A stretch of 36,175 bases of DNA from Flavobacteriales bacterium (GTDB lineage Bacteria; Bacteroidota; Bacteroidia; Palsa-965), in NCBI GenBank assembly GCA_002737665.1, contig NSIF01000018.1, positions 1 through 36,175 on the forward strand, given 5' to 3'. Each line of letters starts with the position of its first letter. Within the stretch, counting starts at the first letter, position 1. Under the pieces are notes generated by a model, which was given only the letters and a program-made list of their open reading frames with translations, had not been told where the DNA came from and did not search any database. Shown piece by piece: positions 33,913 through 36,175 of this stretch. Both the position numbers and the translations under genes were made by a program.

Positions 33913-35310
33913 ATGTACTTCGAACGCGATGATACAATTGTTGCCCTTGCTACAGCTCATGGAACTGCTGCAATTGCCGTAATTCGGCTTAGCGGACCAG
34001 AAGCCTACTCCATCACTGAATCGGTTTTTCGTAACAAAATAGGCAAGGCAAAACGGATTGCACACCATCCCTCACATACCATACATTTTGGGACAATTGG
34101 AGAGGGTGAAATTGCATTGGATGAATGTTTGGTTTCTATATTCAAAGGACCAAATTCTTTTACAGGGCAAGACGTGGTTGAGATTTCCTGTCATGGTAGT
34201 ATTTTTATACAACAACAATTAGTTCAGTTACTGATTCGTTATGGAGCGCGTATGGCCAACGCAGGAGAGTTTTCGTTGCGCGCATTCTTAAATGGCAAGT
34301 TCGATTTATCACAAGCAGAGGCAATAGCAGATTTAATAGCTTCGCAGTCTGCAGCATCGCACCAAGTAGCGCTTGAACAAATGCGGGGGGGATTCTCATC
34401 GAAGATCAGAACATTGCGCGAACATCTATTAAACTTTGCATCGCTCATTGAACTGGAATTGGATTTTGCTGAGGAAGATGTAGAATTTGCAAACCGTGAT
34501 GACCTTAAAAAGTTACTTTATACAATTCAACGCTTGGTGCACCGCTTAGTGAATTCATTTGAAGTTGGTAATGTGATTAAGAATGGAATTCCAGTAGTGA
34601 TTGTAGGAAAACCAAATGCAGGAAAAAGCACTCTTTTAAATGCATTGGTAGATGAAGAACGCGCCATTGTTTCTGAAATTCCAGGTACCACACGTGATAC
34701 CATAGAAGATGAAATTACGATTGACGGAATTCTATTCCGCTTCATTGACACGGCAGGGTTACGGGAGACTACTGATGTGATTGAGTCAATTGGAGTGTCA
34801 AAGGCATTTGAAAAGGTAAAACAATCTGCGATTGTCATTTATCTTTTTGATGTGCATGAATTGACTGCTGGGGAATTAAAATTAAATTTAGATGAGTTAA
34901 AAAAGCACATCACCTCAGATCATTCGCAGCTTGTGCTAATAGGAAATAAAATTGACAAGGAAGATTTTAATAGTATTCAAAAGGAATTCAATGCGTTTGA
35001 TGTTTTGTTTTTGTCGGCCAAAGAAAATTTATACATTGATGATTTGAAATTGAAGTTGGTGAGTTTATTTGATAGTAGGACCGTTCATGTAACGGAAACG
35101 ATTGTAACGAATGCACGCCACGTAGATGCCTTGCGACATACAGGCAATGCGATACAACGAACGATTGATGGATTAAACGGAAATGTGAGTGGCGATTTGC
35201 TGGCACAAGATATTAGAGAGGCACTTCATTATTTAGGTGAAATTACAGGAGAGATTTCGAGTGATGATTTACTCGCTAATATTTTTGGTAAGTTTTGTAT
35301 CGGGAAATAA
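33913..35310 (+). CDS. mnmE: tRNA-modification GTPase MnmE
   Basis: A 465-residue GTPase that, with MnmG, adds the carboxymethylaminomethyl group to U34 of certain tRNAs. The N-terminal formyl-folate domain begins with DDTIVALATAHG. The G domain has G1 GKPNAGKST (232-240), switch region EIPGTTRDTIEDEI, G3 DTAGLRET and G4 GNKIDKED. The protein ends FGKFCIGK with the catalytic Cys462 of the C(I/L/V)GK motif. It is complete. The 3' end is a known target of tyrosine recombinases in other bacteria, and here a broken recombinase gene lies about 200 bp downstream. Confidence 0.98.
   Translation: MYFERDDTIVALATAHGTAAIAVIRLSGPEAYSITESVFRNKIGKAKRIAHHPSHTIHFGTIGEGEIALDECLVSIFKGPNSFTGQDVVEISCHGSIFIQQQLVQLLIRYGARMANAGEFSLRAFLNGKFDLSQAEAIADLIASQSAASHQVALEQMRGGFSSKIRTLREHLLNFASLIELELDFAEEDVEFANRDDLKKLLYTIQRLVHRLVNSFEVGNVIKNGIPVVIVGKPNAGKSTLLNALVDEERAIVSEIPGTTRDTIEDEITIDGILFRFIDTAGLRETTDVIESIGVSKAFEKVKQSAIVIYLFDVHELTAGELKLNLDELKKHITSDHSQLVLIGNKIDKEDFNSIQKEFNAFDVLFLSAKENLYIDDLKLKLVSLFDSRTVHVTETIVTNARHVDALRHTGNAIQRTIDGLNGNVSGDLLAQDIREALHYLGEITGEISSDDLLANIFGKFCIGK
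35293..35310 (+). other. Candidate integration site (att) at the mnmE 3' end
   Basis: The last 18 bp of mnmE (encoding FCIGK and the stop) read TTTTGTATCGGGAAATAA. This is the same segment that serves as the attachment core of the genomic island SGI1 in enterobacteria. No second copy is visible in this window; one would be expected at the other end of the element, outside it. The att role here is inferred from position and the neighbouring recombinase remnant. Confidence 0.4.
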
Positions 35311-35326
35311 TATCCTTTTTCGAAAT

Positions 35327-35346
35327 AATCCCCAACAATCCCCGAC
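35327..35346 (+). repeat. Tandem 10-bp direct repeat
   Basis: AATCCCCAAC followed at once by AATCCCCGAC, one mismatch in ten. It lies 17 bp after the mnmE stop and could be a recombinase arm site or a chance repeat. Confidence 0.5.
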
Positions 35347-35375
35347 CACAAAAAACCTTCTTAATTGTTAATTAC

Positions 35376-35401
35376 CAACACTTTACACGCGTGCTGTGTT
35401 G
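35376..35401. repeat. Nested dyad in the mnmE-integrase gap
   Basis: The outer arms CAACAC (35376-35381) and GTGTTG (35396-35401) enclose the perfect palindrome CACGCGTG (35386-35393). The dyad axes differ by one base. It may be a protein-binding site of the integrated element. Confidence 0.5.
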
Positions 35402-35438
35402 CTAACTATTTTTCGGACTTGGTTGAAGTGTACCCATA

Positions 35439-35493
35439 TTTGTCACAGAAAGAAATACACTGTGACGGTTTTTGTCACAGTTTTTCTGTAACA
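35439..35493. repeat. Alternating GTCACAG/CTGTGAC repeats before the integrase remnant
   Basis: GTCACAG occurs at 35442-35448 and 35474-35480, each extended as TTTGTCACAG. The inverse CTGTGAC occurs at 35460-35466 and, with one change (CTGTAAC), at 35486-35492. The alternating orientation makes two potential hairpins directly upstream of the recombinase ATG. They could be regulator or recombinase arm-binding sites. Confidence 0.6.
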
Positions 35494-35510
35494 ATTTAAA
35501 AACAAAAACC

Positions 35511-35912
35511 ATGAAAATTAACGTCAGAAAAAGAAAAACAGGCGATGAAAAATCAAGCCTAAATTTAGAAATCACAGTTAACGGAAGAAGAACTCGTGAA
35601 TCACTTGATTTGTTTTTATACAACAAACCAAAAAACAAATTACAAGAGAAACAAAACAAAGAAACATTGGAACTAGTTGAACAAATTAAAGCCAGTAAAA
35701 CTATTGAACTACAAGATCAAAAGTATGGCACCATGCGTCAGGATTTTGGCAAAAGAAATTTTCTAAGATTCTTTGAAGAAAAAATGGAAGAACGAAATGA
35801 ATCAGCTGGCAATTATGGAAACTGGGATTCTGCTTTAAAGCATTTGAAAGCTTGTTTTGGTGAAGTGCTTATGATTAACCAATTAAATTTTACCTTTGCT
35901 TATAAACAATAA
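35511..35912 (+). pseudogene. Tyrosine recombinase (integrase), truncated before the catalytic domain
   Basis: The ATG at 35511 begins MKINVRKRKTGDEKSSLNLE, matching the arm-DNA-binding domain of Bacteroidota phage-type integrases. The central part (KNKLQEKQNKETLELVEQI) forms the usual long helix. The core-binding SAM-like domain begins around residue 80 and reaches GNWDSALKHLKACFGE before the frame ends at residue 133. Complete members have about 400 residues with a catalytic R...HxxR...Y domain, which is absent here. The next 263 bp encode a different protein, so this is a deletion or replacement rather than a simple frameshift. It probably cannot recombine DNA but might still bind arm sites. 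Confidence 0.75.
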
Positions 35913-35917
35913 AAGTT

Positions 35918-36175
35918 ATGAATTATATTGGCGTTTTATTTGTTGTTTTATTATACGGTTTAATTTGTTATTTGATAGGTGAGTTTTTTGGACGAGCCAA
36001 ACATATTGGAAGATGGTGGACTATGTTTTTGTTTTGGTCAGCACCAATACCATTAATAGGATTGTTAGCATTAATATTTAGCCCTTCGGCAAAAAAAACA
36101 CAAACTTCAAAGTATAATAGTATTTGGTTGGTATTAGGGGTACTATTCTTGTTGCTGTCAATTAAACCATTATAT
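35918..36175 (+). CDS. Small integral membrane protein (partial, runs off the window)
   Basis: An open frame starting at ATG 35918, 5 bp after the truncated integrase stop, with 86 codons and no stop before the window end. Three membrane segments are likely, at residues about 3-22, 35-54 and 69-82+. The motif GRAKHIGRWW just before the second segment and SPSAKK after it give the protein a conserved look. I cannot name the family. It probably belongs to the inserted element or to the DNA that replaced the integrase C-terminus. Confidence 0.6.
   Translation, partial: MNYIGVLFVVLLYGLICYLIGEFFGRAKHIGRWWTMFLFWSAPIPLIGLLALIFSPSAKKTQTSKYNSIWLVLGVLFLLLSIKPLY

Follow-up and report, generated by a model that had tools for sequence, protein, structure and literature searches.

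The MGIVchHai6 family comprises mobilisable islands that are integrated into trmE, with a layout of HTH gene, DUF927, MobI and type I restriction-modification genes (PMC4958241, PMC7449626). The attL core of MGIVchHai6 reads TTCTGTATTGGGAAGTAA, and its integrase is reported to be 67% identical to IntSGI1 (PMC4958241). MGItrmE of Shewanella putrefaciens CN32 is a defence island at trmE, which carries type I restriction-modification and excises with the aid of an excisionase (PMC12016545). The literature we searched on integration at mnmE (trmE) in Bacteroidetes, with subscription papers mostly outside the search, holds no account of a Bacteroidota hotspot; it consists of SGI1-type work in Proteobacteria and of a Riemerella island that targets a tRNA (PMC6764341). 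The analyses of trmE islands in it are confined to Proteobacteria or Gammaproteobacteria.

The stretch of DNA analysed here (the window, 36175 bp) is the entire contig G000:C10 of an assembly of 60 contigs and 67% completeness from an uncultured member of the Bacteroidia. We are confident that at its right end an integrative and probably mobilisable island has recombined into the 3' end of mnmE, and that the part seen is the left junction of this island, on the integrase side. Because the contig goes no further and the assembly is 67% complete, the cargo and the right end of this island are unreadable. Islands that target mnmE are themselves already known and the window adds a truncated example; the stub is of less interest than the wider integrase clade.

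The features of the junction are listed in Table 1. An earlier note, made from the letters alone, had called mnmE intact with an FCIGK end, and so it is: the open reading frame encodes the full MnmE domain set (MnmE_helical and TrmE_N in Pfam), its product is 88% identical to the nearest MnmE of the same genus, and it ends in KFCIGK followed by the stop codon. MnmE depends on its C-terminal Cys motif. The listed ORFs to the left of mnmE read as ordinary chromosomal genes, and thus the boundary of the island is the end of mnmE. The GC content falls from 34-43% within mnmE to 30-32% past its end.

Table 1. Features at the right end of the window (positions in bp).
Feature	Position	Strand	Description	Basis
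mnmE (trmE)	33913..35310	+	intact, 465 aa; 3' end is the integration target	ORF and Pfam
attL core TTTTGTATCGGGAAATAA	35293..35310	+	18 bp, codons FCIGK-stop	sequence; direct copies bound the elements of relatives
leader from attL to int	35311..35510	+	repeated TTTGTCACAG and stem-loop; possible Int/Xis arm sites or operator	
truncated tyrosine recombinase	35511..35912	+	133 aa; arm-binding domain and half of the core-binding domain	Pfam, alignment with G113, tree
membrane-protein gene, 5' part	35918..36175	+	open, cut by the contig end	

Between attL and the integrase gene, TTTGTCACAG occurs in two direct copies and one inverted copy (35440-35481); copies of it form a 10-bp stem-loop that is followed by T-rich sequence (35459-35481). 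These repeats and the stem-loop are candidate arm sites, an operator or a terminator. The leader resembles in size that of G113, the genome with the nearest relative of the integrase, and TTTGTCACA is common to both at the corresponding leader position. Near the integration site, Rfam gave no match.

The integrase remnant starts with an ATG 200 bp past the mnmE stop, and its last codon ends at 35909. In Pfam, the remnant passes the gathering threshold for Arm-DNA-bind_5 (E 4.6e-9) and for Phage_int_SAM_5, a SAM-like core-binding domain of which positions 1-50 of 98 are covered (E 4.1e-5); no catalytic Phage_integrase domain is found in it. The integrase of G113 is intact (367 aa), located at mnmE and 62% identical to the remnant. 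Homology between the two stops at about 35866 in the DNA and at about 35878 in the protein (residue ~120). If the G113 residues beyond 100 are compared with the whole window in six frames, only 27 residues match (35811-35891). The tyrosine recombinase that the earlier note placed about 200 bp past mnmE hence lacks its catalytic domain, as had been claimed on the basis of the sequence, and the alternative raised there, a full-length integrase after correction of a sequencing error, was not borne out: a frameshift that conceals an intact gene was rejected, because no frame of the window shows similarity to the catalytic domain. Consequently, as assembled, the element in the window is at most a defective member of the mnmE islands. 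The AYKQ at the break, compared with AYKE in G113, might have been left over from integrase codons lost by deletion, but this was likewise dismissed, since its 17 of 24 matching bases were reached by 10 of 30 shuffles; no remnant of downstream integrase codons was found adjoining the break.

The break sits 263-297 bp from the contig end of a fragmented, incomplete draft. One might therefore suspect that the integrase is actually intact and only looks truncated through misassembly, with the last ~300 bases derived from another strain or element variant, and the contigs of the relatives G001, G013, G042 and G048 indeed stop 1-5 kb past mnmE, as expected of differing variants. However, the membrane-protein gene has a clean start at an ATG of its own, and its GC content is as low as that of the remnant. 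A truncated mnmE-linked integrase is also found within a large contig of G192, where it is cut at ~190 codons away from the contig edge, and possibly in G304, which has a 215-aa frame. We consider an artefact unlikely. Just 263 bp are visible past the break and the downstream integrase codons leave no remnant there, so that the catalytic half might have been displaced by a segment with the membrane-protein gene that was inserted into int, with the rest of int beyond the contig. Yet target-site duplication, transposase and inverted repeat are all unseen, and the arrangement is equally expected under a deletion; such a displacement appears rather improbable to us. The decay that had been proposed for the element is supported for the integrase gene as assembled only, given a break near the contig end, a possible misassembly and no right att site found in the 67%-complete genome.

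Past the remnant, the unrelated membrane protein described earlier as running off the window was recovered as an open frame that bears no relation to the integrase. Its family is rare and accessory (5 of 395 genomes of the class), the best relative being 46% identical, 239 aa long and terminated by a SHOCT domain. The gene is probably island cargo. In viral contigs the protein has no match. An attempt to locate the right flank via the downstream gene of G001 was abandoned, as this gene belongs to a large family of PKD-domain paralogs and is uninformative.

A profile built from seven N-terminal sequences was used to look for relatives of the integrase in the class (395 genomes); as the seven were mostly mnmE-linked, the profile is biased towards the recovery of mnmE-linked matches. 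Among the 29 best profile loci, the window excluded, 25 have the last mnmE codon directly upstream on the same strand. With forty weaker matches added, 69 relatives were inspected in total, 44 of which immediately follow mnmE in the same orientation. This position was found for 39 of 47 relatives at 80 bits or more compared to 5 of 22 below 80 bits. The other eight in the higher-scoring group do not directly follow mnmE; among them is the apparent exception G224, where the integrase lies ~200 bp past a free-standing core copy, a placement that fits a tandem array. In a check without such a profile, the window fragment alone was compared with 59 relatives, and the picture was unchanged: the five best foreign matches were all at mnmE. 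By hand count, the 44 genomes with an mnmE-linked integrase fall into 30 family codes. With the fragment from the window as query, a named collection yielded relatives in Shewanella and Pseudenterobacter directly after mnmE; the gammaproteobacterial integrases L075-L077, whose loci are at mnmE, match the fragment with E about 1e-14 and ~35% identity over the aligned part. Since the same integrase, mostly intact, occupies the same spot in relatives across the class, the stub in the window is ordinary.

A stray integrase fragment that came to lie after mnmE by chance, unconnected to the site, could be argued for from the source genome, which at 67% completeness contains no second core copy. This reading is already contradicted by the association of the clade with mnmE in the relatives, which is strong and spans 30 family codes as well as another phylum, and we regard it as hardly credible.

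In the source assembly, the search for a second att site that the earlier note had called for gave matches with 2 mismatches only and no second core copy with fewer, at 67% completeness. The same search succeeded in relatives. We read 4-60 kb downstream at 21 loci with mnmE and integrase, and 10 of them contain a further direct core copy 5-36 kb downstream, three of these being weak matches. Second cores lie at 11.2 kb (17 of 18 bases) in G007, a member of the window's family, at 14.9 kb in G097, 5.4 kb in G389, 34.5 kb in G206, 21.8 kb in G085 and 15.3 kb in G209; G200 has further cores at 24.5 and 30.8 kb, and the second cores of G070, G141 and G319 are the weaker matches. When the last 14 bases were allowed one mismatch at most (strict criterion), shuffles of 16 regions gave 0-0.05 chance copies per region, a figure that applies to this strict criterion alone. 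Within 29-40 kb no second core was found in G015, G113 and G375, and the other loci reach a contig end earlier. The part common to left and right cores is TGTATYGG, and the final bases are often unlike between copies. Differing left and right att ends agree with the description of SGI1-related att sites (PMC9035990).

Downstream of mnmE, the gene content varies among relatives of the same genus. The neighbourhood comparison thus gave variable downstream genes together with second att copies, rather than the constant genes without such copies that would have spoken against an island. That mnmE borders an integrated element and ends in an SGI1-type core, as the earlier note had proposed, is now well supported by 44 further genomes among the 395, in which relatives of the integrase take the same position; several of them have a second core.

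The integrase was placed in a maximum-likelihood tree of 67 rows with a midpoint root. One clade (support 97/97) holds 44 mnmE-linked rows, including the window and three gammaproteobacterial rows, together with 8 others, while 15 integrases of the same architecture that are not mnmE-linked fall outside. The mnmE label changes 7 times on the tree compared to 19.4 times in shuffles. The window fragment pairs with the intact mnmE-linked integrase of G113 (support 100/97). Hence, by the position of its relatives and by the tree, the remnant is a tyrosine integrase of the mnmE-linked lineage directly downstream of mnmE on the same strand. It is also homologous to integrases of the MGIVchHai6/SGI1-related type, with L075-L077 inside its clade; IntSGI1, reportedly 67% identical to the MGIVchHai6 integrase, is indirectly homologous to the clade of the window as well. 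The gammaproteobacterial rows, only three in number, are nested in the clade on a long branch beside three Bacteroidia rows (support 91/95). One might speculate, and we do so tentatively, that the mnmE recombination module of gammaproteobacterial MGIVchHai6/SGI1-type islands is a branch of a mainly Bacteroidota lineage that crosses phyla via the conserved DNA of the FCIGK motif.

Taken against the described systems, the window shares with MGIVchHai6 the integrase clade of L075-L077, loci tied to MGIVchHai6 by their MobI(A/C)/DUF927 layout, as well as an almost identical core of 18 bp at the end of mnmE and an int gene beside attL. In contrast, its integrase is truncated, distant (~35% over the aligned part) and from another phylum, and the window, which ends at the contig edge, shows no xis, DUF927, MobI or oriT. 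IncC helper plasmids are not known from the phylum of the window. With SGI1 it has in common the target, namely the trmE/mnmE 3' end with its 18-bp core, and an int gene that adjoins attL, whereas xis, rep, tra, mps and AcaCD sites are all absent from the window as limited by the contig end. The cargo of the Bacteroidia relatives is similar in type to that of MGItrmE; however, MGItrmE is gammaproteobacterial, intact and of demonstrated excision, while the window presents a broken end only. The Bacteroidia mnmE islands (G113, G007, G070 and others) agree with it in integrase clade, position and strand, and the core is duplicated in several of them. Unlike the window, these islands are mostly intact, with a full-length integrase and an HTH_17 excisionase-like gene; they measure 5-36 kb and carry as cargo metal-efflux genes or restriction-modification of type I or IIG.

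The element of G007 contains two HTH genes, the second of the HTH_17 (excisionase) type, as well as the integrase, RadC and a type IIG restriction-methyltransferase. ORF lists read by eye revealed type I restriction-modification in other relatives and metal-efflux genes in G070, and a gammaproteobacterial version with HTH, DUF927, MobI(A/C) and type I restriction-modification is located in the chromosome of an E. coli from a gull. Tyrosine integrases are frequent in prophages, and three unannotated human faecal phage records (5.8-13.8 kb) encode N-termini with 29-36% identity, although these are weak matches. Nevertheless, a prophage, the option that the earlier note had left beside an island, is very unlikely: the inspected elements hold HTH, RadC, restriction-modification and metal-efflux genes, and phage structural genes are not visible on the contig, were not found in the G007 element by Pfam and did not stand out when the ORF lists of the other elements were read by eye. 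Furthermore, the viral contigs contain no relative of the integrase fragment and no exact 20-mer match, and PHROGs gave nothing convincing. Two very small mnmE elements measure 5.4 kb (G389:C2, L133) and 6.5 kb (G141:C26, L130) between core copies; in each of them the integrase is accompanied, by eye, by an HTH gene and by a possible replication initiator of ~310 aa.

If SGI1 and MGIVchHai6 are taken as models, insertion of the island in the window genome would have proceeded as follows. The integrase would have joined the attP core to the attB core, that is, to the last mnmE codons, FCIGK-stop. The recombination joint would have recreated these codons and thereby kept MnmE intact, and integration would have set int ~200 bp downstream of mnmE on the same strand. 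The attR site, with a core of the TGTATCGG type, would be expected some 5-36 kb off, beyond the contig. Later, int would have been broken after about codon 122, either through deletion or insertion. With int interrupted, the island would presumably have lost its own mobility and could be excised only if another integrase of the same type acted in trans.

At least 45 of the 395 Bacteroidia genomes searched (about 11%) possess this type of integrase at the mnmE end, with variable cargo of restriction-modification and metal-efflux genes, which points to an integration hotspot. The abundance of the mnmE integrase module in Bacteroidota appears to be undescribed in the literature searched. If the clade truly crosses phyla, the mnmE 3' end would be a place to seek unexplored defence and resistance islands of Bacteroidota, and the conserved FCIGK codons would account for one integrase lineage in distant hosts.

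Three further observations were made at mnmE. G003, a genome of the same genus, harbours a second, partial 3' part of mnmE ~6 kb downstream of the intact gene, divided between two contig ends (G003:C21:3-362, L060, and G003:C19:1-111, L061); the pieces correspond to residues 309-429 and 429-465 and are 63% and 76% identical to the window's MnmE. Possible sources are an element that carries a long piece of mnmE and a second strain. In G004:C6 (L056), also of the same genus, ORFs whose products resemble the tail sheath and tube of a contractile injection system were seen by eye ~2-14 kb past mnmE. Finally, G392, G165 and G271 (L085, L086 and L087) carry near-identical mnmE integrases in two families (f23 and f15), a sign of recent island transfer.
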